A stretch of 64,000 bases of DNA from Branchiostoma lanceolatum (Eukaryota; Chordata; Leptocardii; Amphioxiformes; Branchiostomatidae), in assembly GCF_035083965.1 (NCBI RefSeq), contig NC_089732.1:14614424-14678423 (forward strand). Reading direction: 5' to 3'. Positions 1,174 to 39,709 of the stretch are shown here, piece by piece. The position numbers and the translations under genes are program-made. The number at the start of each line of letters is the position of its first letter. Position 1 is the stretch's first letter. The notes under the pieces were generated by a model. It saw nothing but the letters and a program-made list of their open reading frames with translations. It was not told where the DNA came from and ran no database searches.

Positions 1174-4100
1174 CTTGAACTCCGCCTCGTATCCCATCTC
1201 GTTCGGATCCGCTGACGGAGCCTTGAGTTTGTGCATGTGCCTGTGGATGTTGGCCACCTCCACCTCCGTGTCTCCGTACAGATGCTGCTCCAGCAAGGCT
1301 CGGTAGATGAACACGTACTGGTCCTAAGAGAACATGGGTAGAACACTGGATGGGAGGTATCATCAAGGAATGGCGGAAGTGTCTCGGCAGGTGGATGCAT
1401 AGCCATACAACTTGAAACATATCATTCTTTGCACTTCAATTCTCGCCGTCAGCCAATCAGATATTGGGACCTTGATCCTGCTGTTGGAGGGAAAGTTACC
1501 AACCAATCACGTTGCGTTTGGACAGCAGGGGGCGACGTGATTGGTTGGTGATGGCTGACCAGCGCTAACGCAGCTAGAAGGAAAGATTGCAGGCTTGTAT
1601 TCCAGGGCCGTTTGCTTTATACAGTGTATGTACGAGCGTCGGCAATTGCCACCCCTTTATCAGCATTGGAACCCGCTCGGGAAATGCTCGGCAAACCCTC
1701 CCGGTTTCAGCCCTGATCTTTTGAACGGAGATTTTGGCTTCTGGGGGCGTCACTGACAGTTGCTCATAGATAAATTAATGAGTTAGCCTTATTTGGCACA
1801 AACAGTCGTTAGTTGCTCATGAATAATTAAGTAGCGATGTAAGACGTAAGCTGATTGGCTGATAGCTTCCCAGCGTCCTTTGCGGCTTTGCTCGAGATGA
1901 GCTTTAGCAAACCCTCTAATGGGCTGAAAGCTGTTTGGTGGTGACGTCGCCAGAAGCGTGTTCAGGGGCTCGGAAGGGCAGGGCCGCTTTGGGAGGTAAC
2001 GAACATATCGGGTCTGCTGGGAGGATGGCAATTGAAAAAGAGTAGATGTATGCGTGTGTTCGTGATTGCTCGTACCACTGTCTGGACCATGGAATGCCGG
2101 TTGTGCCTCATCTGACCGATGAAGCCGTGAACATCGACCCTTCCCTCGGCGGCCAACATCTCCTCCATGGCCTCTATGGCGATGAAGGTTCCCGTGCGTC
2201 CGACTCCCGCGCTGTAAGAAACAATCATTGACCGTGGTGAGGGAGAATGCAATATGAGTCGGTCACGTTTGGGACCGCATTCTTCACAATCTAGCAGCGA
2301 CACCTAGCTGCAGTGCGAAGTTGTTATCGCGCCTGGGGAAGATGGCTGACGGTCCATCGAAACGTCAGCTAGGTATGAACTCTTGGTTGTGTTGGAGAGA
2401 ACTTTTACCCCGAAAGAACCGACGTTGTTAGCTTGGAACTAGAAACAGAATGGCGACTCCATGACGTCAAAATCCAACATGGCAACCCCCAGCAGGGACG
2501 CTGACGGAAACAATAGAGGTTTGCGATTAAAACAACAACAACAAGGCGTCCATACCTGCAGTGCACGACTATTGGTCCCCGGCCGGGAGGGTTGCTGGTC
2601 TTGACCCGCCTGATGAACTTCATCATTCCTAGGGGGCTTTGCGGCACCCCAAAGTCAGGCCAACTGGTGAAGTGGAACTGAGTCACTGTACGGACCGGGC
2701 CTTCGTCCTGAAGTCATATAGAGCTGTCCGTTAGGCAAATCTACAATATAGGGCATCTGAGTTGGGCCTATTGAGTCTTTTTACAGGTTTGCGTAGTAAA
2801 ACCTTTGTTGGATCCGTTCGCATGTGTGGTGACCGCCATCTTGATTTTGTGACGTCGTAGGGTAGCCATACCGTTCTTTCTATTTCTAACAAATCGGCAC
2901 ACAACTATCACGCATTCAACTCAAATAAGAAGAAAAATTCAATACCAATTCATTATAATAAAAAGACCCCGTAATCGCCAAACTAATATAGCAAAACTGA
3001 AGTGTATGTAGCACAAATACTTAAACTCTAGTTCTTCTACATTTTGCCGCAAAGGACATCCTGTTTTGCAGAGTATATTTGCCTATACATTAACAATTTT
3101 TGAAGCAACACATAATTATCATATTTTATTGCCATTGGCGTATAGCTATTGGTTACTGACACGAAGTACTAGCATTTGGACTTTCAATGTACAGACATTG
3201 CTTCAGACGAGACATATATCGCATTTGCTATCTATATGCGTTATATTTACGCGTTAACATCTTCGTAGGTTCTAAGACCATATCAAAACATATAAATTCA
3301 ATTACAATTACTTCTTCTTACTTATCTCCCTATTTGTCTGGTTGTGAAAGAAGTGTCCATACATGTATTATTGTTGAGTTTTGATGAACAAAAAGCAGTT
3401 CGTCTTTTTTATTACAATGACACTGATCATTTTCACCTTCTGTAAATTGAACCTCCGGATGACGTAATCCACCAGGGTTGTCGTCTCTTTCTGAGTGACC
3501 CAGATGTTGCCATAGTCCACACTGTCCTTGTTTGGCCAGTACTGGGCACACTTTGGCTGTAAATACACGAATAGATTAGCCAGTCAATATATAAACAAAA
3601 CCAGGCATTCAGAAGATAACGTTTCATATCGATCTTTGAAATATTTGATACTGGTATCCATTGCAAATTGGTACTGATATCGATGAAACGTTTTAACATT
3701 ACATGTACGCAGTTACGCATTTTATTGATGTTTTAAAAGAGGATTGCGGAGAACATGTGTGTATACGTGTATGATGAAATGCCATGTAGTAGAAATAATG
3801 TTACGATTGCGATTTTGTAAACAAATATCAAATTTTATGGAGCCAACATGTGTAAATACAACAAAATTCAGGCTGTTTAAAGCCAGTTGCCGGTTGTGTA
3901 ACAAGTATCAATCAATCAATCAATCTATCAATTAATCAATCAAATCCTACTCTTGTGCATCTATCAGCCCTGGACTAGGGCCGTACATGTATCTCTGACG
4001 ATAAACATATATTAAGGTTTGGATCACCAAACCGTAAGTATATATGTCATTGTGAAAACTGTTAATCAACTTGAGCGTAGTGCGCAAGTTATTCAAATGA

Positions 4101-7100
4101 CAAATGTCATTATGTAACGCAACCAGAATCTTTCGAATGTAGATATAAATAGATTACTTAAAGGACTGTAGACTTTATGTAGTAATACCTACCAAGTTCC
4201 TTTCCACCAGATTGGTTACCATGACGACAGTTGCCGTGTCCTGCTCCCAAACCATTCTCCAGAAGTCGTTGGCAGTAGTGGGCAAAGGACCTTTGTAACA
4301 GATTTAATAGTGTGCACAGTTCATATTTAAAAACAAAAAGTAGCACCAGTCTCTACCATTTTTTAAATAAAAACGACGTGTCAGTAATGTCAGACATCGG
4401 AGCGTCTGTAAGCATTATATAAATATAGATTGTGCAAGGATGTACAGAGCATTGATGTGTATTTGTGTTTTGACACAACTTTAACGAATATACCTTGAGC
4501 AGCGATGAACTTTTTCGGGTGGTTGTAGCCCTAAAAAGTAAAAAAATTCAACTGTTAGTCATGTCAACACGTAATAAGATTCTGTAATGTCCACTTTAGA
4601 TTTCGAATGAGAAAACCTGTTGCTCCCATCCTCTCATGTATCATATCATACGTTAATGTATGTCGGGCAACGGCCAGGGCGTACCGGCTTGCGTTAACCT
4701 TCTTTCCACTGCGTTAATTAGCGCTGACCCAGCAGTCAGCTAATCAGATACCCCCTCACTTTTCACAAGCCAATCACGCTTCTTCTTGACAGTGGGCGAA
4801 GACGATGATTTGCTGACTCAGCGGGCTATCGAGAATGACAGAGTCGCAGGCCGGTACAGCAGGTCGTTGCTTGACACATACAAACGTAGGCCTGGAATGA
4901 GTAGATGGATGCTCCTTACTCGACTATTTGTGGATTACAAACTTTAAGACACAAAATAACAAAGAAAATCTCGAGACTTACATCGATGTAGTTGGCATTG
5001 ATGTAATCAGTGCCCGGTTGGTCCTCCGATGTAGTGAGAATAACCCTGGAGTGGTCGTCTGTGGAAGATAGAAGTGCTGATCGTTATTGCCCCAAGCAAA
5101 GTGATTTAAAGTTATAACTTGTAAAATCATAGTATGTTTTGTACAATCATGCAAGTTACACTTACAAGTGAAGACGTTCGTGAAGCGGTTTTTCTTCTCG
5201 TTCTCTGGTCGCATGTGCTCATCGCGAGGATTGTTGGCCACCCTAGATATGGACTGGATTAAGAAAAGACCATATGTTTGAATACATTTAACAGTACAGT
5301 TGAACGGAAGTAGAAGACCATTGAGGACTTACAATGACAATGCCAATTGCAGTTTAACCATCGAGAAATCTCTGTACATGTAAAATCATATTACGCTATC
5401 ATCATCACTATCAAAGTCATCATTATTGTTTTCACTGTTTATCATAGTCCTTGTTATCATCATCATAATTGTCATCACCATCATTCTTGTCATCACTACT
5501 GTCAATAAGTATCTCCTGCAATATAGTGCAGAAAATCTGAGAAAATCTGCACAGAAGTCATGTTATCAGCAGTAAAGCAAATTACTTTTAAATTTCACGG
5601 TATGCATTCCTTTTTACAACACATCAGACTGAGTATAGACCTTTCTCACGCGGCGGACATGATACAATGAAAACGATGCCCTTGTGGCAAACAATATACC
5701 GATCCTAACTGTCAATCACAATATTTAGTTTAGCCAATGATTACCTGACAATTAGAGAATCGACCAATAAGGGAGTGGTTGCATGGCCGTCAAATATTTG
5801 CATTTCTATGTTTTTATTTTGCATTTCTACGTTTTGACGGAGGAGGACGGGGACTATGGGATCGGTCAACAAAACTCTAAATTGCTGCATCTTTTTTGTG
5901 CATTACATTAGTTATAATATTGATACTTGGATATCATATTCTAAGACTTAATGTGATTTAGGAGGAAACAAAATCTGTACATTATTTTTGCTTCTTTGCC
6001 TCATTGGCCTCGTCTTCATTCTACCATGTCGGTCACGTGAGAAAGGTGTATTTGAACTTACCTGAAACTCCTCACGGAAGATCTGGTTGCTGTTTCTGTG
6101 GTTATAAACTTCCTCCAGTCGGTTCCTCGGGATCGGTGTGGTGAAGTCAGTCACTGGACAAAAAGATGTTAAACAAAGACTCACACACTGCTGATTTCGA
6201 CATCAAATAAGAGACAAAAGGTATCCTGTCTTCTGATATATTGCTAGATGTAAAAGAACCGTTAAGTCGGAGCACGGTATGTTAAGAGAACATCAATGAC
6301 TGCGCGCTCTCTGCGACCTCAAATTTAACAAAGCGCTCAACGAATTTCATAGATTAAAAAAACAGAATCTTTTAACGATCTGTGTTTTTTGTTGTCTTTT
6401 CAGATATATTTTTACATTTTGCATGATATTCCAATTATAACATGATGGATTAGTCAAATTCAAATTAGGTCGCAGCGAGAGCGCAGCTAGAACTATTCTC
6501 CAAGCAGAGGTTTCGGTCGAGTGGGTAGGAGTGTCCGGGAATTTTTACGCCTCGCTCCCTTCTTAACCCACTCGACCGAAACCTCTGCTTGGAGAAAAGG
6601 CGAGAGCACCTTCTAGTAAGAATGGAGGCCTAAAGCTGCTCTCTCCCTGGACCCGCGGCACGCTGGCGGCGTCGCTACGTCCTAACCTGGATTTGTGTTA
6701 CCCATGACTTTATAATGGGAATATCATTCAAAACGTACAAGTACATGTATGACCAAAAAGACAACAAGACACACAAAGCTTAGAAAGATGCCGCGGGTCC
6801 AGTGAGAGGGGGGGGGGGGCTTTAATCAGCTCAATATAAGCATGTAATTTTATGAGCAACCGCAAATCGAGATTCAACATACGTGGCGACGTGTCTGCCG
6901 GAACATTGTCGTAAACGACATCGTTGTTGCCCATATTTTCGTTGTCAGCAGCAACATTGTTAGCGTTGTCAGCCTCCTCAATGGTGTTGTCACTAATGGT
7001 GTTGTACGCACCGGGTGCCATTTCTAAAGCCGGGTTGTCTGTTCCTGTCCTCTGGGAGTGAACGACCATCTTGGTTGCTTTCTTTCTTCTAAGGAAGATA

Positions 7101-10100
7101 CATATGACGTGAATTGTAATATAAGTTGTCTTTCGAGCATATCATACGGATGATTATCCTGTCTTTTCAATGATTGCAGTAGCTTTATCACAAAAAAATT
7201 ACAGTGGTCAGAATGAACTCCTATTTTGTTAGTGGGGTCGTGTGGCGTATCGGCAGGGTGTTCGACCGATGTTGTGCCGGAGAAAGGCACTTTACACGAC
7301 TTTCCTCACTTCGCTCAGGTGTATAAAAAATAAAAATGGGTACGTTGTTATCTGTAAGTGGCACTGTTAATATAAGTTATAAAAACTTGGGTGCAGTGCC
7401 ACGTCGTCCTTGTCTGTCGAAAACCGAAGTAAAAAAAACAACTCCTATTTACTGCTTTCATGGAAAAGCCGGTTACGACACGGCACAGAGCTGAAGTGTT
7501 CTCAACACCGGGTTGGATTCTTAATTAGACAGCACCATTTCCAATAGTAGAAAATTTGTGACGAATATGTACCAGAGGCCTCGTAAGAGAATTGGTAGCA
7601 TTGTTGTGTATGGTACTTCAAATATGATTTTCGTGTTGACTACTTGATCGAGGTACCACAGAGTCCACAGAACCCGTAGATGGCATGAGGATCCTGTCTA
7701 AAGCATACGGCAATGCCACTTAGTCTCACATGGTCAATTCTATGGTACACATTCTTGACAGACTTTCTACCAAATGATATTGTCAAAATCCAAAACAGTA
7801 TTGATAACACCTCAGCCCCGGCCCGTGCCGTAATTTCCTGGTAAAAGAAGTGAAATGAAGGCGCTAGGTTGAGGTAAAGACTCACCGGCAATAGTACATC
7901 ACGGCGGCGGCGACGATTCCGAGCAGAACAACCACACAGACTGTTGTAATTATGGCGATAAGGGTTGTTCTGTTATAGGACGGGCCGACTACTGTGTTTG
8001 AAGAACCCAAATCAATACAACAATCAAATTGGTATTATTATTATGTCAGTCAATAAACAATACATGTATTGATATAACGACGTATGAAAGCTTAAAGGCA
8101 GCGATAGTTGATGACGTATTTGACTTGTTTAGTTTCCGGTAGCTAGAGGTCAACTGCCAACGCAAATTGAAAATGAACTTACCGATTGACACTGGTTCCG
8201 TATACTGACTGGTGGAGAAGTAGGGCTGAAATGATTAAATTTAAAATTCCATGTAAAACGTGAATGAGTAAATCCTATAGTGTATGGTGTATTGCTTGGC
8301 ACATGACAGTTAAGAATTTCTTGAACTAAAACAACTTTCTCTTCATCTACAGTGATGACTCTCCTGTTCAAGACTTTTGAATCAAAATCATAAATATCTG
8401 CTATTACAACATATTGTTACCTGTGTGAAGGGGGCCATTGTCTTTGCCATTGGTGTTCTGTGTTTGTCTGTCTGCCTGTCTGTATTTCCACATATAATAA
8501 GTATAACTCATGAACCTAAAACTGGATTGTGATGATATTTGATACATATGTAGGTTTGGGTTAAGGCAATGTCATGTCATGTCCATGTCAATTTTGGGCC
8601 TTCTATCGGACTCCCTTCATAATACAATACGAACCAAATAGTAAGGCAACGTTCTTTGAGGAAGACATGAGGAAAACCTGTGTTCCATCGTTGGGTCCAT
8701 ACGCCCTGACAGAAGTGGTGTAGGATGAGTCCGGCTCCAGCGGGGAGTTGGTGTACTCCTGGTTATACACGTCATCAGATGTCGGAGCACGCCTCTTCCG
8801 GCCGCCTTGCTGAGGTTTACAACTGGTCACTGTCCCATCGCCAACGGTCACTGTGGTAGATTCGCCTACTTCTTCCCTGTGGAACGGCGGAACACCGAAC
8901 ACGGTAGAATGATTTAGGTTTACCTAGTATTTGAACAGTAATTGTTGCAACTTCCATGCTTCCAATTATTGCAAATGCATGACATCTTGTTTGCAAAATT
9001 AGACTTCGTTGCAACGTTTCTGAAGACTCCTACAAATTCTAAGTAACAGAACAAGGCTATTATAAGCGGCTCATCGAAAGATTGTTGCGTCAATTTTTAA
9101 AAGTACTCACGATGTCAGGGCCATGGCAATGTACGCGATGTTGTCATATCCAGAATTCTTTGCCTCTTCTAGCGTCTTGTACGGCTGTAACATGTCCGGG
9201 TCCGGTAAGTTGTCTGTACTGCTGCTGTTCACCACGATGACGTGGTAACACCTAGAAACATAAAGTCGTCTGTTAATTAATATTATCTTGTCAATAGAAG
9301 AAGATTATAATTAATATGTTGAAGTATTGATGACTTCATATGCATTCATTTATAAGTTAATGGTCCTAAGGGAGTAATAAAACGTAGCGTATCAGGATAT
9401 GTTAGGGCAACATTCTTGGAACACGTATTTCCCCTATAATGTTTATACGCAATCAAAATTAGCATTTGTATCATTTCGTAATGTTATTATCATGTGTGGA
9501 AGCTTACCCTATTGGTCCGTTTCTGTCAGATGCCGGTTGAATTTGAAGTGGGAAAGTTGTGGAGGCAGCTTTCGTTCCTTCGGGCAACAGCGGACAATCT
9601 GGCTTTGAAGGCTCTGCAAATTAAAACAAAACAAAACAGAGTTAAATTGTACTGCATATGCATTTTTTTCATACGTCGGTAGCGTGTGTCGTTCTGTGGT
9701 AAGTGGCCCTGCCCCTGGAACTAGAAACTGTGAGTTCGATCATGGATGTGTCGCTGACCCTGCATGCTAATGGAAAGGGTTGCAGTCCTTAGGACGGGAC
9801 GTAAAGCCGTGGACCACAGTTTATTGTACGTGTCGAAAAGAGCCAGAGAATTTACCCGGTACAATTAACCTTTGAAAACTGTACATACAACATCTGTCTT
9901 CTCTGTCACGACCAGAGCTAAACTGGATCAATATCGATTTTACTTTCACAGTCGACAATTATTAAGTATTTGTTGTTCAGATCGGAGTACAAAAGTTTAG
10001 CTGTACTCACTTCCCGGCGGCACGGTACAGTTGACAGTCTGACTGAAGTCCCCCTCCCCTGTGTAGGTGAAACCTGTCACGTTTATGGTGTACACAGAGT

Positions 10101-13100
10101 TGGGCAGCAGGTCCAGAATCTCCGTTTTAGTAGACTTCATCAGTCTGATATTTGTAGATGTTGTAGACTTGACGCTGTATTCACCTTCCAGTCTTTCTCC
10201 CTGGACATAGACCTAATATGATAGAAATTCTTATCAAAAACTAGCGGAAAGCACATCGTGTAGTTTGTACGTCTAGTAGAAAATTTGATTAGAGAGCATC
10301 ATACTGACTACGTACTGCTAAATAAAGACAAAGGTTTCCCTTTATTACCTTGATAAAATATGGTATCTTTTCCAACCAAAATGGAATGTGATATCGTTGA
10401 ATTTGATTCAAGAAGGGAATTAGCTCAGAAGGAAAGCGAGTTATCACAGGACAAAAGACAAAAACTAATATTTCCTATTCAATGATACAAATAGAGAGTC
10501 AATCTTTCTGAAAGTACATACGCTGTACTGTTAAGCATGTTTCACCAGACACTCCGGCCTGTCATTCTCGAAGGATAATATAAGAAGCAAGGTGGTAAGA
10601 CGTGAACTTACATTATATCCGATAATGGCTCCCCTTGGTACCGCGGGTGATGACCAGCTGATGTCACAATGGGTGTCCTCCTCCAGTCGATTTATGTCCG
10701 TGGGTGCTGATGGGACTGTGAGAACATAACGTTACACATGTTGCTGCTGTCAATTAAGCATATCTGACAGGTAATGATATCCAAATCTAAAAGTCGTTTT
10801 CTTATTTGATGTTCCCATTCAAAAATATAGATAAATAAATTGGATTTGAACATTAAGGGGTAATTATAACGTAGAAGTAAAGTAAGCTCACATCCATCGC
10901 TTGTCCGCGCGGTTGCGTAACCGGGGAGACCTGTGTTCCTGCCATTAAATGCCTGGACCTGATGTGTTGATAAAGATGATATACTTACACAACCGTATAA
11001 AGGATATATAGAAGGCACCAAAGTGACCAAAATATGTTGTTCATTTTCAATAAATCGTACCTTACCTATTCTATGTCAGTCTAGGACCAAGAAAAAAAAG
11101 GAAAATCTCACTAACTGCCTTACAAAAAAAAGTTGCTACCAAAGCAATGGCCTAATTGGTAGAGTGTTCGCCTTGCATACGGTAGGTCGTGAGTTCGAAC
11201 TCCGGCCGGGTCATACCAAAGACTCTAAAAATGGTACATACTTCTTTCTCTGCTTAGCACTCAGCATTTGGGAAAGAGTATGGAAGTTAAACACACACAT
11301 CACTACCAGCGGACCAGCCCCCTGCTGTAGTGACTTGCACTTGTGTGGCCCAAGGGCTTCGAATGGGAAATGGGCGCCCCCCTACGCATCTTCGATGCAT
11401 GGGACCACTTTAACTTTAACTTTAACTTTACCAAAGTGCAAATTCTAAGCATTGAACCAAACAAAGAGCAATGTGACACTTACTCCCACTTTGTAATCAG
11501 TCGCAGCCTCCAGATCACTAAACCTGTACTCGGTAGGAGCTTGTGGCCCAACGGTGGTATCTTTGATGACCTGTGAATCCGTCGCAATGTAGAGCATGAT
11601 AATGTAACCATTGTTAGGACCGTAGAAGTTGTTCGAATCATCCCACGTCACACGAAGCTCAGACCAAGACACGTTCATGAGTCTCACGTTCCGTGGTGCT
11701 GTTGGGACTAGAATAACAGGAAATTTAGATTGAAAAAAGAGTCAGACCTTGCAATTGGAAACCTTATATGTTTTTTGAAATGCGAAATATCAGCCCACCT
11801 ATAGTTTTAGTTCTGCGTCTTATATCATTCTGCGTATTATAGTATACGACAAAAATACTTTGAAACATTAAAGAAACTGAACCAAATACAAACCTCTTTC
11901 TGGTGTGACTGCTGACGTGGCTACTGAATGAATCGGTGTTGGGGTGATATCTGAAGACACTAAAAGAAAACAAAGCCCATTGTTTTGTTTTCAAACAAAG
12001 ATATCAACACTAAGCTTAACAATTCGTAAGAAGACGTCCATCATCATATTAATCTTATAATATAACTCACTCGTTAAGGAAGAATTCTCTTTTGACAGGC
12101 TCTAGTTTGCTCTGTGGCATACTAATCTCATGGAGACTATACACTTTTTAAAAAGCTGTAATTAACAAGTATTCAAGTTCGCAGTAATCCTCCATTTAAC
12201 CATCCTTCTGATCTGTCTTTGTGCGCTGACCCTTACAAGTATAAAAGCGAAAAAGTGGGAGAAACTCATTTTCCATCACGGGAACACAGTCACCGAGGCA
12301 CGCTGCACAGTGCTGCTGGTTCTGATAGTTAGATTTTTTTTAAATAATCACTTTTACCTCTGGTGCATGTTGGGCTTTCTCCAGTCCATTTCGCGTTAAC
12401 CTGGCACCTCAGAGTGGGCTCTCCTATCAGCTGGTATCCATGGTTACAGGTAAACTGGACCACGTCGTTACTTTTGGCACCGCCGCTGATGGCACCATTC
12501 TCTGGAGCTTGGAGTATCGGGCAAAATGCACAGATGTAACCGTTTGCTTCGCTTATACAGGTTTCCCAAGACGCACAGGGGTGCGGGTCGGAGGAGCAGA
12601 ACTCTGTCGAAAGAAAGAAAAACACATTTATTAGATAACAGAGAAACACAGAAAAGTCAGAGTCTAAATCTCGTTCCGCATGAAAGTTACCGGACATTCT
12701 ATGGAAACAGCGTTAGAAAGAATTTGACAGCTTGGCTGGCTGATTGAGTGAGTGCAGTAAGCTTAACTACTATGTAATTTCTTTTCTTTTCTGCAGGACA
12801 AGATCATAAGCAGGAAAATATGTCAGAAACATTACTTTCTTATCTGGGTGGTTGATTCTTACGTGAACAGCCATTACATTCATATTTCATATTGCATTGT
12901 GAGTGTTTAGATGACGGTATCAAAGCTATGACGGTAAACAATATTCTTAAAAATACCAAGCATCTTGAAGACGTATACATTCATTCGGAATTCCCTGTAT
13001 GTGCTATCGGGCTGATGCATACGTCCTCTTTGGCACGTTATCATAAATCAGACAAACTTCCCCATTCGGCAGCAGATTGGGAAAGTTACAGTTTAAATAA

Positions 13101-14040: not shown

Positions 14041-14044
14041 CTTT

Positions 14045-14071
14045 TTATAATCGTTTCCTTCTTTTGCCCAT
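14045..14071 (-). promoter_or_regulatory. uORF in the phosphatase 5' leader
   Basis: ATG at 14071-14069 opens an 8-codon frame (MGKRRKRL) whose TAA ends 4 nt before the main ATG at 14040. The kinase gene has a matching uORF at the homologous place. It may limit translation of the receptor. Confidence 0.5.
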
Positions 14072-14599
14072 GTGCAAAATGATAACTCTGAAAACAAGCA
14101 GCCTTCCGCCTGACAAAAAGTAGTGCTCTGCCCTAACACTACAATTATCACTGCAGTAACAACTTAATTGACCCCTGTTGCCAACGTAAACGTTATCAGT
14201 GACTGCCGTGTACTTGTGAAGACCATGTTGTCTTTAGTAAATTAGTGTAGAGACTCCCATTCGCTAATTAGTATTCTTCAGGTTTATCGCTCTAAGATAG
14301 GCGACTGAATCCTTCCTTCGCGTACAATCATATCACTACGCACGAATCTGGCGAATCACTGAGGTCAACAGTCAGTGTTGCTGAACAGGTTTTGTAGGCG
14401 CAGAAAGCCTGGTAATTATCTGGATACTTAGCTGTTACAGACACTTTTATATTTCGTCACGAATGAACAAACTTGAAGATTATGTCAATGTTTTATTGTG
14501 TCAATACCATTGCGATGAAGCAGTGATTTGAAGAAGTTAATGTACTTAGAACCTATCTGCCCCTAAAGTGGAGAATCGTTTATATTGTATGTCTATTGT

Positions 14600-14955
14600 G
14601 CCTATAATTGATGACCCAACAGGTCAACCGTAAAATGCCCCACCTTGTTCAAGGCTTTGTTTACATCTTAAAGAAGTCCTGTTTGCGCAGTCTTCGTGAT
14701 AACAGAAGGCCACACTGACTTAATTTGGTTAATTACGTCCCCTGGGCACCCTAAAACTGATGCGAGAGAGAAATGTTTTAGATCGAAGTGAAATTTAGGT
14801 GATCAACTCGACCCTTGCCCAACCCAATCCAACTTTGCTGAACCCAGCCCTGTCAGCCATCGTTGCACGGTGACCTACCAGATAGGTCAAACGAATATGC
14901 GCCACAAGGTTTAAGATTTGTTTACGCCGGGGACTGCCAGGGGCTTTTACATTTT
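14600..14955. repeat. Dispersed repeat family P, copy 2
   Basis: Begins near ATGACCCAACAGGTCAACCG, contains AAGGCCACACTGACTTAATT and CCCTTGCCCAACCCAATCC, and ends with ATAGGTCAAACG then GTTTACG. It lies in the divergent promoter interval. Confidence 0.6.
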
Positions 14956-16035: not shown

Positions 16036-16056
16036 ATGAACGAAAGACGTTTGTAA
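16036..16056 (+). promoter_or_regulatory. uORF in the kinase 5' leader
   Basis: ATG at 16036 opens a six-codon frame (MNERRL) with TAA at 16054-16056, 6 nt before the receptor ATG at 16063. Position and basic character match the phosphatase uORF. Confidence 0.5.
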
Positions 16057-16062
16057 AAAAAG

Positions 16063-16117
16063 ATGGCCGTGGACGTTTTCTTCTTGATTTTGATCTGTTC
16101 AACCTGCGTTCTTAGTG
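16063..16117 (+). other. Signal-peptide exon of the kinase, ending at a GC donor
   Basis: Encodes [18 protein letters not shown], a clear signal peptide, in 55 nt ending in phase 1. The only donor that preserves the phase is G|GCAAGT at 16118, a GC-AG type site. The paralogous phosphatase exon has a normal GTAAG at this place. Confidence 0.8.
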
Positions 16118-22100: not shown

Positions 22101-25100
22101 AAAATATATACCATGTCAAGGGCAAAACATAATGGAAAACACCGGTATGATAGAATTGTTTCCTGCATTATCTATGTTAGTCTTATTTTGCAAAAACTGC
22201 ATTCAATTGTGTGCACATCAGATATCATAACAATATGTGCAGTTATGCTCACGACAAATATCCGGGAACACAAACATACAGACAATTGAGCAGACACGCG
22301 AAAGCATCCAAAACAGTACTTCTGTTTTCACGGAGGCAATAAAGTGTATTTTTCGGCTTTTGCTGCTATTTGCATCTCTTGCAAATGAACGAAGCAATAA
22401 GAATCACATTGTCCGACACTCACATGCATGTAGTACTAAGTTGTGCTTTGCAGCAAACCAGTCAATTATCTATAACTTACAATGTTCCCATTAGCCAAAT
22501 GCAGTGACTGGGTGTAATTGTGTTTAGTAGATAATGGTGAGATATGATCTTGTCCGGCAGAAAAAAAACATAGATAGCAGTTAGGCTTACTACACTCACT
22601 CACTCACTCACTCACTCACTCACTCACTCACTCACCCACTCACTCACTCACTCACTCACTCACTCAATCACTCACTCACTCACTCACTCACTCACTCAGT
22701 GAATATCTTTCTAACATTTTCCCTTACCATTCTATGTAACTTCAAAGTGGCAATTTAAAAAAAGAGAGTTAACCACTCCTTTTAATCAAGTCAAGTAAAG
22801 AGACAGCACACTAAGACATATTAGAACGATATATATAATAACTAGAGGATTACTGCGAACAAGAATCAAACACGTTTTAATTAGAACATGTTTATAGTTT
22901 CTCCAAGATCAGCTCGTAATGAGTAAGCCTGCACCACGAGATGATGATAAGTTTCTTCCAGTTTACGGATTTTTAAAGATATGTGTTGATATTTTTGTCT
23001 GAAAACGGTTTTTTTTATAGTGTCTCCAGATATTACCCCAACACCGCTTCATGTAGTAGCCACATCATCAGACTCACCAGAAATAGGTTTGTATTAGGTT
23101 TAATTTCTTAGACTTAGATGATTCCTGGAAGTATTTCATGTCCAATATTATATTTCGAACAAAGATTATGGAAAGAACATCGTAAGCAGAATAATCTATT
23201 ACAGTTGCAACATGTTGGTCTTGTTTCATAAAATGTATTCGTGTGTGAGATTCATATTATTTGGCAGAATTCTATTTTAATCTTTTATCACTATTGTGGC
23301 AAAACTCCTGTCCGATTATGTTACCGTAGTAAACAAAAAAAACTAGTTTCACTCGCTTTTTGTCGATCATACCTGTAAGAGGTAGGCACAAAGGCTTCGA
23401 AGAAGGATGGTTAACTGTAAGAGTACTGCGAGCAAAAAACAAAACACTTGTTAAATAAAGCTTAATGTTTATAGTCTCTTCAATAGTAAACTGGAGCCTG
23501 TAAATGGAGGGTTCTTCTTGTGCTTACACCATAAGATAATTACGAGGAGAGTCTTCCAGTTTACGAATTTTTGTGTTTATATTTATGTCTGAAAACAATG
23601 AGCTTTGGTTTCTTTTAGTGTCTTTAGGTAGTACCCCGACACCACTTTATGTATTAGCCATATCATCAGACCAACCAGAAAGAGGTAAGTATTTTTTTTA
23701 GTTCCTTTGAAGTTTCCTGGAAGTACTTTATGTCGTATACTATAATACGCAGAAAGATATCAGACGGAGAACTAAAACTATAGGTATAACTGATATTTAT
23801 TCATTTATCTTTACAAAACATAATGTTTTCTTTCAGTGTCTTCAACCATTACCCCAACATTGGTTCATGCAGTAGTCGAATCATCAGTCACACCAGAAAG
23901 AGGTTTGCATTTTGTTTTAAATTAGTTTCTGATATCAGTCAGTCGGTGTACGGAACTGTTGTCAATCGGTAAGTTCATCTGTAACTTTACTTTAACTATT
24001 TGAGCAAGCTGAACAAGTGAAAATTCGACTAATTATGACAAATAGCAGTCTTATTGCGCTCTCTATATTCTTTTATTGATATCGCAAGTTGATAGGGAAA
24101 CTACAGCCCTAGCAAGTTTGTTCAGGTTGTCGTATGAATTTAAGGTCCACCGAGAAGGGGCTGTGCGAGCAACCTGCATGAAGGAGCTCTGTAGAGCTCT
24201 TCCATGGAGGTTGCACGCACAGCCCCTATTGGGTCCACCACAACCACCAAATAGTCTAATTGATGATGTATGAATTTCAGGCCCATCGAACACAACGGTC
24301 GGCCCATCCTATAACAGGACAACCCTTATCGCCATAATTACAACGGCCTCTGCGGTTGTTCTGCTCGGAATCGTTGCTGCCGCCGTGATATACTATTGCC
24401 GGTGAGTGATGAGACTAATATAATTACCATTTTCAAGACTTATTCACGGCAATCGTTTTCAATACGATGATTCTTCATTGTCTTTATAATGATTGCCGTG
24501 ACACATTTGCCAACAAGAGCCGTAAAATTATAATCAATCATAATCTATAGATTATTGTACATTACAAACATTTCTAAACTGATATTTTTGTTGCCAATGC
24601 ATTCGTGAAATCCACAATTGTATCAATGAAGGACTGTATTGTGATACAGTATCCCTTTCAAAAGAAGAACACACAATTTATTTAATAATGGTCAGTTCAA
24701 CTGGAAACACTGTCTACAGATTAAGTAAACACTATGCAAACCGATACTCATACAGCGTTTGTTCATCGAAACGCAATTGGTGACATTAAACTGTAACAGC
24801 AATTGCATCGATGATACTTTCCTTAATGTCATTAACAATATTATTTCAAAACCTTAAATATAGAAGGAAGAACGCCCATAGGCAGACTGCTAATAGAGGT
24901 CTTGCATTGACCAACATCGAAGATAACGTTGAACCAAGCGGTAGTGGAACTCGAAATGGGGCATACGCAACGGTGGATGATGTCGAGAAGGTTGGTAAAA
25001 TATCTTCAATCAAATGTCTCAATTTTAATTTAATTTGAAATTAACTGGCACACCCACAATGTATTATGTGCGTCTCGCCCTCCTTCTCCTTCTTCTCCTT

Positions 25101-25194
<94 letters not shown>

Positions 25195-25755
25195 TATATA
25201 ATGTATGTATGTATGCATATATAATATATTCTGTCCCCAAGGATTGCAGGCGTTTATCACAACTAGAGACTGTTCACGACGTCAAGAAATTCCTTGAAGC
25301 TCATGGTTTGAAAGAGCTTTCAGCAAAATTTGAAGGTGAGTCTTCATCATCATACCACTGTACATTACCTGTACCACAAAAATCTTAACACAAACATTTT
25401 CCAGTAACCCGAGTGTTACTTAGTATACCTGCGTTGTAGGGAGACAATGTCATATTTTATTTCCATTATGGCGTTAATAAGAATATGAAATTGACAATTG
25501 CAATTACTATATATGTAGAACATGACGTTGACGGGAGAGCGCTGCGTGGCATGAACGACGCCATCCTGAAGGACGTGATACCAAAGGCCGGGCCTAGAGC
25601 AAGACTGACGGCGCTGCTTATGGAGCTGAAGACTTCAGCCAAGCCGGTAATTATGCCAATTGATTTCCAAAAACAATGTATCATTGATTCCTACCTATCC
25701 TTTAGATTTTAACGAATGAATTTTTGTGTGTGTGTGTGTGTGTCTGTGTGTGTGT

Positions 25756-25794
<39 letters not shown>

Positions 25795-28700
25795 TGTGTG
25801 TGTGTGTGATAAATGCTTCTAGTCCAAGGTTGTCATTACGCATGGGTGGTAACTATAGAGAAACTAAAAATTGATTGAAGTAAAGTTAACGGAATGATAT
25901 AATTTAAGACTTAGAATAGATATGAAAATAGATATTTAAATAATAATCAATCATATTGAATTCTCTTCCAAAATTTGTGAATAAAAATTGTCTACTTACA
26001 GGCGTTACAAATATATAATCGTTCGTGAACAGCATCAGCAAGGTGAAATCTTTGGTTTGTAGTTGCAATTGCATTGCATAGTATTCAAACATATGTGTGG
26101 CTATTTCATAAATAACGAAACTAAAGCTTGGATCTCCGTTCAAAGAACCAACCAGATGTTCCAACCTCTACCCTCAACTACTGGGAAATCCCTCAAGCGA
26201 ACTTGAAGCTTGGAAGGTGGCTTGGCAGGGGCCAGTTCGGCGAAGTGCGACTTGGTGAAGTTCGGAATCGCGGAGTGACTAAAGCTGTCGCTGTAAAAAC
26301 ACTTAAAGGTTGGTTTTACCCTTAGCTCTTCGTCTTGACGGTAATAATCCTGTATATGCTGTAAAAGGGGAAATATACACGGGATGTAATTTTCGCGTTT
26401 TAAGTTCGCGGTTAACGTTGAAACAAGGGGGGTATGCGTGCAGAAGACAGAGATGGGTGTTCGCAGTGAAGACTTCACTACAAATCCACGAACATAAAAC
26501 TAACGCGAACATTTCCCATTTTTATAGTACATTCTGTATCTAGATCAGTTCCTGGTGTTGCTACATTCAAGTGAATAACAGTGCGTTGCCGGTACCGTTG
26601 CAACGTGCAGAATGAGATATAGGCAGTATAACATGTAGGTGGTGGTTCTCTCTCAAGATTTGAAGACCTCATTGTTGTATGCATATCAAACCTAAAACCT
26701 TTCAATCATACTATTTAATTGCAATCTCTGTGACTGTGTAGTTACATTGAGATAGAATATAATATATTGTTTAACATTTTACGTTGTATATTTGAATACA
26801 GACTCTGCGTCAGGCAGTGACAAAAGGGACCTCCTGGGAGAACTGGACATCCTGGTTACTGTCGGCCATCATGAGAACATAATCTCCCTAGTTGGAGCAT
26901 GCACAACAGGCGGTGAGTTTGTCAATATTGCTGGATTTGGTATCTGAAAATCTGCAATAATAAAAAAAAATCTTGTCAGCATTTTCTCAAGCTGAATAAA
27001 AAATACTCTTTTGACACAAGAGATTTATTCCACCGACGTTTTGGTGACCATCTGTCACCTTCTTCAATGCAATTCTGGCTGGTTCACATAGCAATGCAGC
27101 ACAAGTGCATTCCCAAACGCAAATTACTTACATTATGTACAATCACAGGGGATGACATCACCATGCAGTAACAAACGTACAGAAGCGTAACTAATTATAA
27201 ATTCTGGAATACGTTGGATTAGAATGCATTTGATCGTACCTGGTACTCAAAAACATTGCAGTTTGTCAGTTTACTAAATACTATCATACATTTTCGGTAC
27301 AGTCATGCTAATTGTAGTTTTTTGTGTTTTATTGCACACTTTGATAGGCCATCTTTGCATCGTGGTTGAATACGCCCCTAACGGATGCCTTAAAGACTGG
27401 TTGACCTCCAAGTCTGATGAGCTCAACGCATCTTCTGAGTATCAGAATCAGCCGGTGTCTCTTTCCATCGTCCCCATGGAACAACTCATCCAATTTGGCA
27501 TTGATGTGGCCAATGGTATGAGTCATTTAGCAGCTATGACGGTACGTCATCGTCAGCTAAATTCAGTTTCGTTGGTATCCATCTAGCTTCAGGTACCATT
27601 GGAAGCGTACGTCAGGCTAAAACTGGTGTATTTTTAGGTTGAGGACTATACTAGTCGGTACTCTTTATCGTCCTGAAAGTCTATAGGTATCTATTGAATT
27701 TAAGCTAGCAATTAATGCTTGCTTCACGCCAGCTCAAAATGATATTTGAAACGATATCAAAACGATATGTTTAAGCTTACAATGACTTCTATCATTTCAG
27801 TGCGTGCATCGTGATCTAGCAGCGAGGAATGTACTTCTTGGAGAGAACCTCGAGGCCAAGATATCTGACTTTGGACTCTCGCGGGACATATACGAGAGTA
27901 GCGAATACGTCAAAAGCACCAAGGTGAGGGCACAGGCCGTAAAAACAAGTTACAACACTGAGTATTACTAAGTAAATGTGCTTTTGGTTAAGGGAGATTT
28001 TCATACCAATTTGTCTTTAAGTTAGTCTATGTCACTTATGATATATTATTATATATAAACATATGATACATCATATGTATTTAGAGAGAGAGGGGGAGAG
28101 ATAGAGGGGGAGAGAGTGATGGCATGGGGAGAGGGGGAGAGGGAGAGACAGAGAGAGGGGGAGAGGAAGAGAGAGAGAGAGAGCGGGGAGAGGGAGATAG
28201 TATTTCTTTTTAGCTTTCAACAGGTCAAACCAAAAAGCAACCTTTGTCATTTCAGAGCAAGTTACCATTGCGTTGGATGGCATATGAATCCCTGTTCTAC
28301 AACGTGTACACATCTCAGAGTGACGTGTGAGTACCACGACATGTTCTAATACAAACATTTATTTATTTAACTATTTACGCCGAATGGTCTAATGTTTTAA
28401 GAATACGGATCTCGTTCATTGCACCTTATTGTCGCCCTCCCTACAATATTTATTTTTATCATTTCCACTTATTCATTGATGGCCGTTACGTGCGCAAAGA
28501 ATATTATGTTTGCACCAGTGATTTAAGTTTTACACAATGAAGTTGAAACCGATTCAGACAATGTATCTGATTAAATCGTTACGTTCATGAATGAATTGCT
28601 TAGAATAGTCATTTGTATCAGGAGGCTTGTCTTGTCTATTTCATATTTGTAAGCTTGACATCCAACTATTTACCATAGAAACAGTTTGGAATTAATTAAC

Positions 28701-31197
28701 TTATTAGACTTATGAAAGGCGCTTTATGACCAATATTTACTTCTATAATCTTGCTTTACTTATTATTTTGATTATTGTAACGCATTGCTTCGTTTTATTG
28801 TACTTGTACTTGTATTTGTCTCACAAAGTTTATTTCTCTCTTTCACCTCGATCTCTTTTGTGCTGCACAGGTGGTCATTCGGAGTCCTTCTGTGGGAGAT
28901 TATGACTATTGGTAAGTCAGGCTATGCTCTTTCTCTGAAGTAGGTCGCCGAGATCAATGTTCAGAATGTTCACTCGCAAAGTTACACAGTAGACGACCTT
29001 CATGAGCAAACTTATGCTAGGGTCACATTTTCCAACCCGGGGCCCGGCCGGGCAGCTTGTGGGAACTATGACATAGAAGACAACAAAACACACCAAACTT
29101 TTAAAAATGATTCCTTACCATACGTTATGTATATTCTTGATATGCAGCTTTTATTCTTTGGTTTCTCAAACAGCCCGGTCGGACTCAGGGTTGGAAACCT
29201 AGCAATACTGGGGCCTGGTTGTATTTCAACAGTTCCTCTTTAATGGGTGCTCTGGAGAAAACTAACACTACCAATTGTAAATACCTCTATAGGATTACCG
29301 ATTAGGTTGTTGTATCGACCTTTCAGCAATTCTGTCCTTCCTCCAGGAAAACAACCCTACAAGGGGATGAACGGGAAGAGGATGATCGACATGATCAAAG
29401 ATGGCGGCAGGCTGGAGAAGCCCACACTTTGTCCGGAGGATGTGTAAATAAAAAAAATCAAGATATCAATTTTTGGATCGTATTCTTAAGGACCTTCGCA
29501 AAGTTATTTTGTCTCATTACAATGTTGTTGTTTTTTTAATTCTTTTACTCAATGATTAATAAATGATACACAAACTAAAACTAAAAAGCCAAGATGGCAA
29601 TACATAAGATAATAGAAAAAAAAACTAAAGAGAAGAAGCCTCCCAATGCTCCCATAATCAAGCAATACAATTGGTCGTGCCAACAATATCAATGTCATAT
29701 TTACAAGATTAGTGTAAAAGCAAACGAAAGTATGATAAACATCATGTTCCCCACTTACTCCGATGCTTAATTCTCCAATGTTGTTAGTAACTATGGAAAT
29801 CATTTGATTTGAATCATATAAGACTAAAAATGTCCACTTTTACATGACGTGCATATTTCACAAATATGAAATCTATATCATTTGTAAATGAGTTTTGGCA
29901 GCCTTTGCTCATTGTAGACTTGGAAATGAGTCTGTTATCAGTATAATCTATATGAATTCATTATCCTCTAATTTCAAATCACATGCGTTGCAAAGATAGG
30001 TTTTTAGGAAGCTATCGTGCAATTTCCTCATTAATGAGGCAAACTATGTAAATCACATCATATACGTGTAAGTTTGATGATATTCACCTTCATCTCACAT
30101 GTGTCACAAGTATAAACATTGCACTTTTCACCACTAAAGTTGTATGCAGCCCTCATGCAGATTATATTACGATTTGAATCATGTATGAGTATGAAGTTCC
30201 TGTCATTTGGCACAATTCAACTTAAGATTTCTCTGATGTACTATTCCAAAGCTGAAAACACAAATCACAATACTAAAAACCGCTAGATCATCTGATCAAG
30301 ATGCATCATTTATAATGACATGTTGTTCTGAAACAAGTTTTAACTGTAATTTCCAACACAAGAATTGGACTTACCTAAATTTTCGACTTAACGGCACCAG
30401 TCAATGTGTGAGCAATCCAGATAGCATAACGTGACGTCCCCCCAGCAGTGAATTGCTCACTCCTTGGCAAAGACTGGTGTTGTACAGTCGAATATTTGGG
30501 TAAGTCCAATTCTTGTGTTGGAAATTACAGTTAAATCTTGTTTCAGAATGATTTTTACCAACACAGATGAACTTTCAAGCTAAGAATGACATGTTGTATT
30601 GCAGTTGGACAAATTCAATTATATTTTCAACTAGCTCGTTTGCTCATTTCCCATCTATTTTGTCTTTATTTAGGTTATCTATCAAAACTCACGGTTTTTG
30701 GTATATTAATACAGACAGTATGTATCATATTTTTTTTCTTAACCCATTCAGATACGCTATAATGGTGACGTGCTGGGACACCTTACCTGAAGACAGGCCG
30801 AGCTTTCCTCAGCTGAAAGCGCGTCTAGACAGGACACTGCAGGATTTCAAGGTGATCACAGCAAACATATAAAAGATTGTAATTTTGTGATTAGAGAACA
30901 TAATGATACTAAAAATTAGCCCAATTTGAATCATGTAAAACCTAAGATAGTCATTTTGTTGTAGTGAATAGTTTTATTTCATACTTATGTCTTGTTCTAT
31001 GTTTACTGTTGTTGCCATACTTTGTACCTGCTACAATAGTCGCGTAATAAAGTTCTAAAGTTCTTTAAAAGCGGTTATTCCTTTTGGCACAACCGATTGA
31101 TAGGTTGTGTCATTTTAATTACATATCATATCCACTTGTACTTATTTATTCATTTCCTTTCTTCCCATTGCAGCCTTATACAGCACTGCTGAAATAG
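16063..31197 (+). CDS. Receptor tyrosine kinase: sushi/FN3 ectodomain, TM, SAM, kinase
   Basis: Twenty-two exons: 16063-16117, 17347-17580, 17920-18216, 18911-19147, 20648-20713, 21548-21787, 23021-23086, 23619-23684, 23837-23902, 24281-24401, 24864-24990, 25242-25335, 25519-25646, 26146-26308, 26802-26912, 27348-27541, 27801-27923, 28256-28326, 28871-28911, 29347-29443, 30752-30851, 31174-31197. They total 2721 nt, 906 residues plus stop, with no frame break. Domain order: signal peptide, EGF-like/sushi, FN3, EGF-like/sushi, stalk, EGF-like/sushi, three stalk cassettes, TM (about residues 458-479), juxtamembrane tail, SAM (about 526-599), kinase (about 600-906). It should be a cell-surface receptor that phosphorylates tyrosines on ligand binding; the ligand is unknown. 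Intron 1 starts with a GC donor. The phosphatase gene with the same ectodomain plan lies head to head. Alternative splicing of the symmetric ectodomain cassettes is possible. Confidence 0.88.
18420..18790. repeat. Dispersed repeat family P, copy 3
   Basis: Shares ACACGTCAAATGTAAAATAA, CAAGGCTTTGTTTACATC, AAGGCCACACTGACTTAATT and CAAACCCTGTCAAACATCGA with the copies at 13400 and 14600. It ends with a second GTTTACATC block. It lies in an intron of the kinase gene. Confidence 0.6.
19263..20355. mobile_element. TIR DNA element, about 1.1 kb, non-autonomous
   Basis: A 23-nt terminal inverted repeat is seen: left at 19263-19285 begins TAACGTTGGGTAACCTAAAT, and its exact inverse ends at 20355 (...ATTTAGGTTACCCAACGTTA). 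The similarity extends into CGGGATTTTT / AAAAATCCCG blocks. No transposase frame is visible inside. It lies in the intron after the second sushi exon of the kinase gene. Confidence 0.78.
20648..20713 (+). other. Stalk cassette 1 of the kinase
   Basis: 66 nt, phase 1-1, encoding [20 protein letters not shown] then EG. It is homologous to the phosphatase stalk exon at 11894-11959, including the GTTTGTATTTGG donor sequence. Confidence 0.75.
22593..22698. repeat. (CTCA)n microsatellite at a decayed sushi cassette
   Basis: About 26 units of ACTC. It is followed by CTTTCTAACATTTTCCCTTA and ATGTAACTTCAAAG, the intron signature that precedes the real sushi exons, but no sushi exon follows. Confidence 0.65.
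23021..23902 (+). other. Stalk cassettes 2-4 of the kinase (23021-23086, 23619-23684, 23837-23902)
   Basis: Three further 66-nt phase 1-1 exons with the pattern V-S-x-x-x-T-P-T-x-x-x-V, ending PE(R/I). Each has a T-rich acceptor and the first two share several hundred bases of related intron, so the block is a tandem intron-exon duplication. The products are Ser/Thr/Pro-rich spacers of 22 residues each. Individual inclusion in the mRNA cannot be proved from sequence. Confidence 0.68.
24145..24240. repeat. Near-perfect intronic hairpin with almost no loop
   Basis: AGGGGCTGTGCGAGCAACCT (24155 on) is mirrored by AGGTTGCACGCACAGCCCCT (ending about 24227). The stem continues to AGGAGCTCT/AGAGCTCTT around a 2-nt loop. 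It lies about 40 nt upstream of the TM exon acceptor of the kinase gene. Confidence 0.75.
24281..25646 (+). other. TM, juxtamembrane and SAM-domain exons of the kinase
   Basis: 24281-24401 encodes [14 protein letters not shown] with two N-glycosylation sequons (NTT, NRT), then the TM helix [20 protein letters not shown] and YYCR. 24864-24990 encodes the tail [12 protein letters not shown]...[11 protein letters not shown]. 25242-25335 and 25519-25646 encode a SAM-like fold: [61 protein letters not shown]. The five-helix pattern, the D-x-x-x-L/DG-x-x-L core and the (I)PKAGPR-x-RL end all match SAM. SAM is a protein-interaction and oligomerisation domain. In Eph receptors it follows the kinase; here it precedes it. 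Confidence 0.78.
25103..25200. repeat. (CT)n(TA)n microsatellite
   Basis: About 40 nt of CT then about 50 nt of TA, immediately upstream of the first SAM exon. Confidence 0.9.
25723..25808. repeat. (TG)n microsatellite
   Basis: About 85 nt of TG with a few TC/GA interruptions, in the intron after the second SAM exon. Confidence 0.9.
27006..27180. repeat. Dispersed repeat family Q, copy 1
   Basis: Contains AGAGATTTATTCCACCGACG, TTTTGGTGACCATCTGTCAC, CTTCTTCAATGCAATTCTGG and CAGGGGATGACATCA. Copies are at 62236-62440 and 63150-63330. Here it sits in an intron within the kinase domain. Confidence 0.75.
28082..28198. repeat. GA-rich low-complexity repeat
   Basis: About 115 nt of (GAGA)/(GGGGA) units shortly before the [11 protein letters not shown] kinase exon. 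Confidence 0.9.
30326..30548. repeat. Intronic foldback element (MITE-like), about 220 bp
   Basis: The left arm TTCTGAAACAAGTTTTAACT...TTGGACTTACC (30326-30374) is nearly the reverse complement of GGTAAGTCCAATTCTTGTGT...TTGTTTCAGAA (about 30499-30548). Inner blocks CACCAGTC...GAGCAAT and ATTGCTCAC...GACTGGTG are also inverted, so almost the whole element folds back. Confidence 0.8.
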
Positions 31198-39706: not shown

Positions 39707-39709
39707 ACC

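Follow-up and report, generated by a model that had tools for sequence, protein, structure and literature searches.

A stretch of 64,000 nucleotides from the amphioxus Branchiostoma lanceolatum (contig NC_089732.1, positions 14,614,424 to 14,678,423; hereafter the window, in whose own numbering all coordinates are given) carries two divergent genes arranged head-to-head, with 2.0 kb between their ATGs. A receptor protein tyrosine phosphatase (RPTP) gene lies on the minus strand and a receptor tyrosine kinase (RTK) gene on the plus strand. Their front parts are homologous in exons, introns and upstream sequence, in inverted orientation, and the kinase gene appears to combine an RPTP-type front with the cytoplasmic part of another receptor family.

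Organization of the two genes

As predicted from its splice sites, the phosphatase gene consists of 22 exons that run from 14040 down to 1174 and encode 905 codons with no stop. A signal-peptide exon (13986..14040) is followed by an EGF-like/sushi exon (12358..12603) and by a stalk exon (11894..11959) that resembles the 5' part of an FN3 exon. Two FN3 domains are then encoded by four exons (10011..11707: 11484-11707, 10892-10958, 10612-10715 and 10011-10212), and a membrane-proximal PTP_tm-type domain with an RKRR site by four more (8183..9613: 9508-9613, 9111-9251, 8678-8876 and 8183-8225). The transmembrane (TM) exon (7886..7991), a juxtamembrane (JM) exon with the motifs GAYNTI and VVYDNV (6883..7088) and the nine exons of a first phosphatase domain, D1 (1174..6153), complete the model. 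The frame is open at the donor at 1174, and a second phosphatase domain (D2) is expected past the window.

The predicted kinase gene also has 22 exons, with 906 codons and a stop: twenty exons beginning at 16063, then the eighth kinase exon in a shortened form (30752-30851) and a final one (31174-31197). The latter, which ends in PYTALLK and a stop, was modelled after the C-terminus (QDFKPYTSLLK) of the B. lanceolatum kinase P0001; the read-through alternative stops at 30872. From the 5' end, the gene presents a signal-peptide exon (16063..16117), a first EGF-like/sushi exon (17347..17580), an FN3 exon (17920..18216), a second EGF-like/sushi exon (18911..19147), a first stalk exon (20648..20713), a third EGF-like/sushi exon (21548..21787), stalk exons 2 to 4 (23021..23902: 23021-23086, 23619-23684 and 23837-23902), a TM exon (24281..24401), a JM exon containing GAYATV (24864..24990), two SAM exons (25242..25646: 25242-25335 and 25519-25646) and the kinase exons K1-K8 with the last exon (26146..31197). 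All introns of both models are GT-AG, with the sole exception of the signal-peptide intron of the kinase gene, which has a GC donor at 16118; GT stands at the matching site of the phosphatase gene.

Domains and enzyme families

Pfam recognizes in the phosphatase a Sushi domain, two fn3 domains, PTP_tm (PF18861, 35.5 bits for a cut-off of 26.3) and Y_phosphatase (1.5e-86), and in the kinase three Sushi domains, one fn3, a weak SAM and a tyrosine kinase domain (PK_Tyr, 5.7e-90). The EGF-like half of the sushi exons lies outside the Pfam matches and was recognized by eye. Both enzymes keep their catalytic motifs: WPDFGVP and [10 protein letters not shown] in D1, [20 protein letters not shown] and DFG in the kinase. 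The first-pass annotation of this DNA, made from the sequence alone, had described one gene as ending in an intact D1 and the other in SAM plus an intact tyrosine kinase. The second description holds, the SAM being weak when taken alone (SAM_2, 22.3 bits for a cut-off of 20.5; SAM_1, 22.6 for a cut-off of 23; best Protein Data Bank (PDB) match, E=0.023) and clearer at the equivalent place in related amphioxus kinases (P0019, 1.3e-9). In the first, the intactness of D1 is borne out but not the ending: the frame is open at 1174, and the B. lanceolatum orthologue P0123 runs past D1 into D2.

The best PDB matches of D1 are RPTP alpha and epsilon, with 363 bits for RPTP alpha D1. RPTPs of the R4 type (PTPRA, PTPRE) have short ectodomains devoid of sushi and FN3 domains. 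The window phosphatase resembles them in its D1, and its orthologue P0123 has a second phosphatase domain; it differs from them in an ectodomain made of sushi, stalk, FN3 and PTP_tm-type parts. Membership in the R3 type (PTPRJ/PTPRB) was considered, as the PTP_tm family carries the PTPRJ name in Pfam, and rejected: R3 members score 217-236 bits against 363 for RPTP alpha D1, and the orthologue has a D2. No R3 RPTP orthologue is reported for B. floridae (PMC5336234).

For the kinase, PDB scores are nearly equal for FGFR3 (268 bits), Tie2 (266) and RET (264); a two-copy EGFR entry heads the list solely by matching twice, with 158 bits each time. Classical FGFR, Tie and RET receptors have ectodomains of their own (Ig sets; EGF, Ig and FN3 in Tie; cadherins in RET), and membership in these families was rejected for a protein whose ectodomain contains, by Pfam, sushi and FN3 domains alone, plus the EGF-like half seen by eye. 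Nor is it an Eph receptor: Pfam finds no ephrin-binding domain, and the SAM is N-terminal and not C-terminal of the kinase. Kinship between the two enzymes themselves was likewise discarded, the window proteins aligning only over signal peptide, sushi and stalk and over the TM and the start of the JM region.

Inverted homology between the pair

When the two halves were compared by blastn, inverted matches were found for the sushi exon with its flank (12347-12808 against 21350-21798, 77%, E=6e-97), the stalk region (76%), the TM exon (7880-8027 against 24260-24407, 85%) and the signal-peptide region (71%). Exon structure agrees with this, much as the first-pass annotation had noticed: both signal-peptide exons are 55 nt long, phase 0 to 1; the EGF-like/sushi exon, phase 1-1, occurs once in the phosphatase gene (246 nt) and three times in the kinase gene (234, 237 and 240 nt); the 66-nt stalk exon, phase 1-1, occurs once and four times, respectively; and the TM exons (106 and 121 nt, phase 1 to 2 in both) encode 30/34 identical residues where aligned. 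The same annotation had cited a shared intron. Indeed, with all model exons masked, 11985-12254 matches 20361-20629 in inverted sense over 277 columns (74.7%, E=2e-45, 176 bits); among 20 shuffles, the highest score was 31.9 bits. Three collinear inverted blocks of similarity were also found 5' of the two ATGs, in the stretch that separates them (14041..16062), one of which overlaps a dispersed repeat also present at 13401-13535 and 18378-18485. A chance resemblance of FN3 and sushi folds was thus ruled out, because introns and upstream sequence match as well.

Synonymous divergence (dS) between the phosphatase sushi exon and those of the kinase is 0.22 for sushi 3, 0.27 for sushi 2 and 0.34 for sushi 1, and 0.32-0.44 among the kinase sushi exons themselves, values that come from 77-79 codons per exon and carry no error estimate. 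On these sequences, the event that links the two genes, whether exchange or duplication, seems no older than the tandem duplications within the kinase gene. The ratio of nonsynonymous to synonymous divergence (dN/dS) between the two genes is 0.28 for the TM exon, 0.56-0.84 for the sushi exons and above 1 for the stalk, on 21 codons only. Compared with the FN3 exon of the kinase gene, four of the five stalk exons beat all 500 shuffles and stalk 3 does not; the stalk exon is likely, but not surely, a cut-down FN3 exon.

The claim that the two ectodomains are similar stands in the sense that they are related, not that they are the same, since the kinase model has no counterpart of the phosphatase's FN3 pair, PTP_tm domain and RKRR site and possesses an FN3 of its own. 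Likewise, of the "one chassis" proposed for the two genes, the shared exons stand and the full chassis does not: the window kinase is devoid of the FN3-PTP_tm block that P0001 keeps.

Which exons came from which family

The exons were compared one by one with 8 enzyme-free receptors, 14 RPTPs and 31 further Branchiostoma RTKs, P0001 being treated separately. In the kinase gene, the signal-peptide, sushi 1-3, FN3 and TM exons score best against RPTPs or enzyme-free proteins, and the JM exon, both SAM exons and all eight kinase exons against RTKs with a SAM (SAM-RTKs). Thus, the FN3 exon has 56/94 identities to an FN3 of the RPTP P0241 versus 20/74 to the best other RTK, the TM exon 21/35 to P0240 versus 13/30, and exon K1 47/52 to a SAM-RTK versus 5/14. 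The 21-residue stalk exons are divided, two being marginally best against an RPTP and two against an RTK, and all four are far better against P0001. The family switch falls at the phase-2 intron after the TM exon, so that the JM exon is the first of SAM-RTK type. As judged from these comparisons, the predicted kinase gene is a SAM-RTK cytoplasmic part set on an RPTP-type front.

Amphioxus SAM-RTKs (annotated as TIE- or FGFR-like in Branchiostoma) presumably correspond to the kinases that D'Aniello et al. (2008) grouped as "expanding TK". The window kinase resembles them in its JM, SAM and kinase exons, which match P0001, P0002 and P0005 best, in the position of the SAM before the kinase and in its C-terminus; it differs in its RPTP-type signal-peptide, sushi, FN3 and TM exons, for which P0001 alone is alike among the RTKs compared. 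The motif EANG, taken as a proxy for the EGF-like/sushi exon, points the same way: among 246 proteins scanned, it occurs in the ectodomain of the two window genes and P0001 only, four other proteins having it in a SAM or a tail.

P0001, annotated as "TIE1", carries a whole sushi-stalk-FN3-PTP_tm-TM ectodomain, RKRR included, on a SAM-kinase. It thus shares with the window kinase an RPTP-type ectodomain, and 304/323 residues are identical over nine cytoplasmic exons. It differs in having kept the FN3-PTP_tm block, in its sushi exons (160/234 identical by best match, three window exons being compared with two) and in K1-K2, which are unmatched and where the model contains a reverse-transcriptase (RVT) fragment. 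If P0001 is an allele of the window kinase, the ectodomain would have diverged greatly while the cytoplasmic part stayed conserved; the contrast would mean less for a paralogue. In the kinase gene, 23926-23968 is equal in length to the 43-nt phosphatase exon 8183-8225 and keeps its splice sites (34/39 nt identical over the 3' part and donor, 27/43 over the whole exon). It has no in-frame joining, and splicing it in would create a stop in the TM region; it is probably a relic of a lost FN3-PTP_tm block.

The first-pass annotation expected the TM exons of the two genes to group together. By pairwise identity they are indeed closer to each other (30/34) than to the best-matching RPTP of a different gene (21/35 and 22/33). 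Nearer still to the phosphatase TM, however, is the TM of the kinase P0001 (27/28).

On the phosphatase side, D1 exons P1-P8 are identical to P0123 at 261/263 residues, and B. floridae P0125 matches at 85% over 40% of the query. The public models for the window phosphatase and its nearest relatives, from three assemblies, begin no earlier than the TM: P0123 shortly before the JM region, P0124 at the TM exon's end and P0125 within the JM region. The sister RPTPs P0121, P0122, P0240 and P0241 are modelled with ectodomain, TM, D1 and D2 together, and P0240 and P0241 present a long chassis before the TM, with PAN, MAM, EGF, sushi, FN3 and PTP_tm domains. A C-terminal Y(A/S)NF is found in P0123 and in 12 other amphioxus RPTPs examined.

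Recurrence of ectodomain sharing in Branchiostoma

Protein sets were drawn from the best 120 of 1992 and the best 120 of 4790 matches, with at most 8000 candidates scored for each, and ectodomains were cut at the TM. Four of the 32 RTKs (P0021, P0022, P0028, P0030) and five of the 14 RPTPs (P0123, P0124, P0125, P0128, P0171) had no clear TM and were dropped. A related RTK ectodomain was found for all nine RPTPs with a cut ectodomain: P0129/P0025 (81% over 381 residues), P0132/P0012 (81% over 496), P0127/P0018 (69% over 335), P0134/P0019 (59% over 152) and, with P0001 as partner, P0241 (76% over 373), P0240 (63% over 579), P0121 (64% over 206), P0122 (64% over 204) and P0126 (54% over 130). Since similarity to the window genes was the criterion for collecting these proteins, the figure is not a genome-wide rate. 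Sharing of FN3 and PTP_tm was selected in this way; that of the fibrinogen and Ig modules, which are absent from the window queries, was not. The shared stretch covers about 495 residues with a double fibrinogen module in P0132 and about 340 with an Ig/EGF module in P0127, and it ends after the TM in the window pair and just before it in the P0129 group. The first-pass annotation had presented the pair as singular, which these comparisons contradict: in sequence terms, it is one of several RTK/RPTP ectodomain sharings in Branchiostoma.

In a tree of the membrane-proximal block (23 rows: 10 RPTPs, 7 enzyme-free receptors and 6 RTKs; 200 bootstrap trees), the three classes do not group by class. 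P0001 falls with seven RPTPs and seven enzyme-free rows (100/99); three RPTPs accompany the five remaining RTKs (100/99). The idea that RTKs arose only once on this chassis was rejected, the RTK label changing four times, at least three of these changes being forced by well-supported branches, and none of the 200 bootstraps uniting the RTKs. The RPTP label changes nine times (five forced) and the enzyme-free label five times (three forced). A strong reading is tempered by label shuffles, as few changes being needed in 36/500 for RTKs, 106/500 for enzyme-free receptors and 475/500 for RPTPs, and three RTK changes may amount to one gain and two losses. Nine of the 20 inner branches are weak, P0127, P0126, P0132 and P0011 have long branches, and the automatic block ends overran into the TM in P0011 and to the protein end in P0133. 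Having no such block, the window kinase is absent from the tree. At E 0.05, Pfam finds no PTP_tm in P0019, P0025, P0011, P0018 and P0129, and P0127 is below the cut-off (20 bits); in these six the block was taken by sequence similarity, and P0018 is not in the tree.

A third class of receptor, represented by P0130, P0135, P0136, P0137, P0242 and P0032, ends in a short, conserved tail of tyrosine motifs: TYxx[VI] and G[AT]YQTL (6/6), and N[EA]YxxL (5/6). No kinase or phosphatase domain is listed for these six proteins, whose tails did not go through our own Pfam scan. The membrane-proximal block is present in all but P0032, and P0131 and P0133, on the same chassis, look like models cut short. 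Yxx[VI] motifs also occur in the window JM exons (GAYNTI, VVYDNV and GAYATV).

Entries of the three classes tend to lie on common contigs. Contigs equal in size were counted as one, which shows a common chromosome and not adjacency. Among the matches listed, the B. lanceolatum contig of 19,776,172 nt has 4 RTKs, 4 RPTPs and 1 enzyme-free receptor, and that of 19,392,235 nt in a second assembly 5, 2 and 1, P0135 being on a 7-kb contig. All listed B. floridae entries are on a contig of 21,514,203 nt (2 RPTPs, 2 enzyme-free receptors and 4 RTKs, the latter including P0003 and P0004, two isoforms from a single gene). For the floridae x japonicum hybrid, 6/7 listed entries are on a contig of 21,286,318 nt; the floridae x belcheri hybrid has three entries, each on a contig of its own, and those of B. 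belcheri are scattered over many smaller ones. A search for non-amphioxus relatives listed 12 proteins, ten from Branchiostoma and two weak matches (P0243, P0244); as each search scored at most 8000 candidates, other animals may also have RTKs with an RPTP-type ectodomain. The window DNA had no match among phage records, as expected.

Other content of the window

NHL-repeat genes lie at 32917-33471 and 35166-36035 (minus) and 53089-53952 (plus), in duplicated, partly inverted blocks of 1-1.8 kb at 84-91%; the NHL match was checked by Pfam for 35166-36035 and 53089-53952. Three long open reading frames (ORFs), 38690-39766 (minus), 48402-49562 and 57998-59353 (plus), are rich in QPYAVxYQEE-like and NPMY repeats and have no Pfam match at E 0.01; at a guess, they are possibly intracellular parts of the neighbouring NHL genes. 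A reverse transcriptase ORF (43693-44928, plus; RVT_1, 2e-20) adjoins short-repeat arrays at 43235-43868 and 45146-46302.

Origin of the pair and alternative explanations

The involvement of inverted duplication and exon shuffling, put forward in the first-pass annotation, is well supported, because the exons and introns are homologous in inverted sense, the EGF-like/sushi exon type is shared and the family switches at the TM/JM intron. We consider it probable, with some reserve, that a duplicated RPTP front joined to a SAM-RTK was followed by a pairing of kinase and phosphatase as writer and eraser; the origin is read from sequence, and the mechanism is one that we infer. A short-form RPTP gene (signal peptide, EGF/sushi, stalk, FN3s, PTP_tm, TM) would have been duplicated in inverted orientation together with its upstream sequence. 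One copy would have retained its R4-type phosphatase; in the other, the exons through the TM would have been joined, via the phase-2 intron, to the JM, SAM and kinase exons of an amphioxus SAM-RTK. This kinase copy counts more sushi and stalk exons and would have lost the FN3-PTP_tm block. Related ectodomains and very similar TM helices could let the two receptors meet the same or related ligands, or each other, so that ligand or co-clustering would set the balance between autophosphorylation by the kinase and dephosphorylation by D1. Lying head-to-head, the two genes would be more likely to be expressed together. RPTP-alpha feeds Src-family signalling through a C-terminal YANF site (a Src/Grb2 link). 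The window phosphatase may do so too, and, since the YANF is present in its orthologue P0123, it need not be purely inhibitory.

Several observations weigh against this account. The signal-peptide intron of the kinase requires a GC donor, and stalk 2 (43 versus 39) and stalk 3 (39 versus 36) marginally favour an RTK. The P0001 model, with its reverse-transcriptase fragment, may be partly chimeric. Given where the models P0123-P0125 begin, the ectodomain may have escaped prediction, or the gene may chiefly yield a cytosolic form. Lastly, the window kinase is without the FN3-PTP_tm half, the part most like the phosphatase ectodomain, and a shared ligand site could have been lost with it.

The most serious competitor, which we nevertheless hold to be rather unlikely, keeps the same origin and dispenses with functional pairing: neighbours in a crowded receptor cluster would swap exons, each serving its own ligand and cells. 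This would fit the contigs shared by RTK, RPTP and enzyme-free entries in three assemblies (25 of the 26 listed for B. lanceolatum and B. floridae, two being isoforms of one gene), the many kinds of RTK ectodomain, the fast-changing sushi exons and stalks and the exon shuffling known in amphioxus RTKs. However, sharing across enzyme classes is seen in four module types, a recurrence that random exchange would not necessarily produce by itself, and the TM exon changes more slowly. The late starts of P0123, P0124 and P0125 suggest another possibility, in which an internal start makes a cytosolic enzyme the chief product of the phosphatase gene, its upstream exons belonging to a different transcript, for example one for a receptor that is soluble or has a short tail. 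A cytosolic form of PTPRE exists in mammals, and short-tailed receptors on the same ectodomain exist; yet all 22 phosphatase exons are in frame and stop-free, and the four sister RPTPs are predicted with ectodomain, TM, D1 and D2 in one protein, which makes this improbable. It is far less credible still that no gene end was duplicated, the shared introns being mobile-element copies and the shared exons convergent or singly borrowed. Dispersed repeats do occur in both genes (13401-13535, 14595-14729, 18378-18485), and one upstream block is such a repeat, but the shared introns flank the shared exons in kept order and inverted sense, nothing in the right half of the window matches 11785-12272 at E 1e-6, and the other two upstream blocks are collinear too.

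A broader proposal extends the pairing of writer and eraser to a chromosomal receptor cluster of Branchiostoma, in which the same ectodomains would have been placed, time and again, on a writer (the kinase), on an eraser (the R4-type phosphatase) and on a substrate, namely the enzyme-free tail and its conserved tyrosine motifs. Matched sets would then sense a common ligand space through opposing phosphotyrosine enzymes, with fast sushi and stalk exons over conserved enzymes, as in recognition or immune systems. We offer it tentatively, as possible though doubtful.

Relation to known systems and significance

Paired activating and inhibitory immune receptors, which represent one of the basic designs in immune recognition, have related ectodomains, tails of opposite sign and linked genes, and their opposing tails usually recruit enzymes. 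The window genes resemble them in being linked, with homologous ectodomains and opposing tails, and differ in that the tails are themselves a kinase and a phosphatase; to our knowledge, no immune role is known for the window pair. In vertebrates, Tie2 and VE-PTP likewise combine an RTK with an FN3-rich RPTP, which act on one another, and we know of no evidence that their ectodomains derive from one another. Massive duplication and exon shuffling of TIE-, FGFR-, PDGFR- and RET-like kinases in amphioxus was reportedly described by D'Aniello et al. in 2008, a study cited in PMC8662651. New domain combinations in amphioxus innate immunity genes are reported in PMC2575513, in passages that do not concern RTKs and RPTPs. 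No report of RTK/RPTP ectodomain sharing was found in the literature searched, a weak absence as subscription papers were largely outside its coverage.

Unlike the paired receptors that recruit enzymes, the genes described here, which are linked, place opposing enzymes directly on related ectodomains, and, within a single lineage, comparable sharing seems to have originated on more than one occasion. They raise two testable questions: is competition for a common ligand possible between a receptor kinase and a receptor phosphatase, and how does exon shuffling at defined introns give rise to new receptor pairs?

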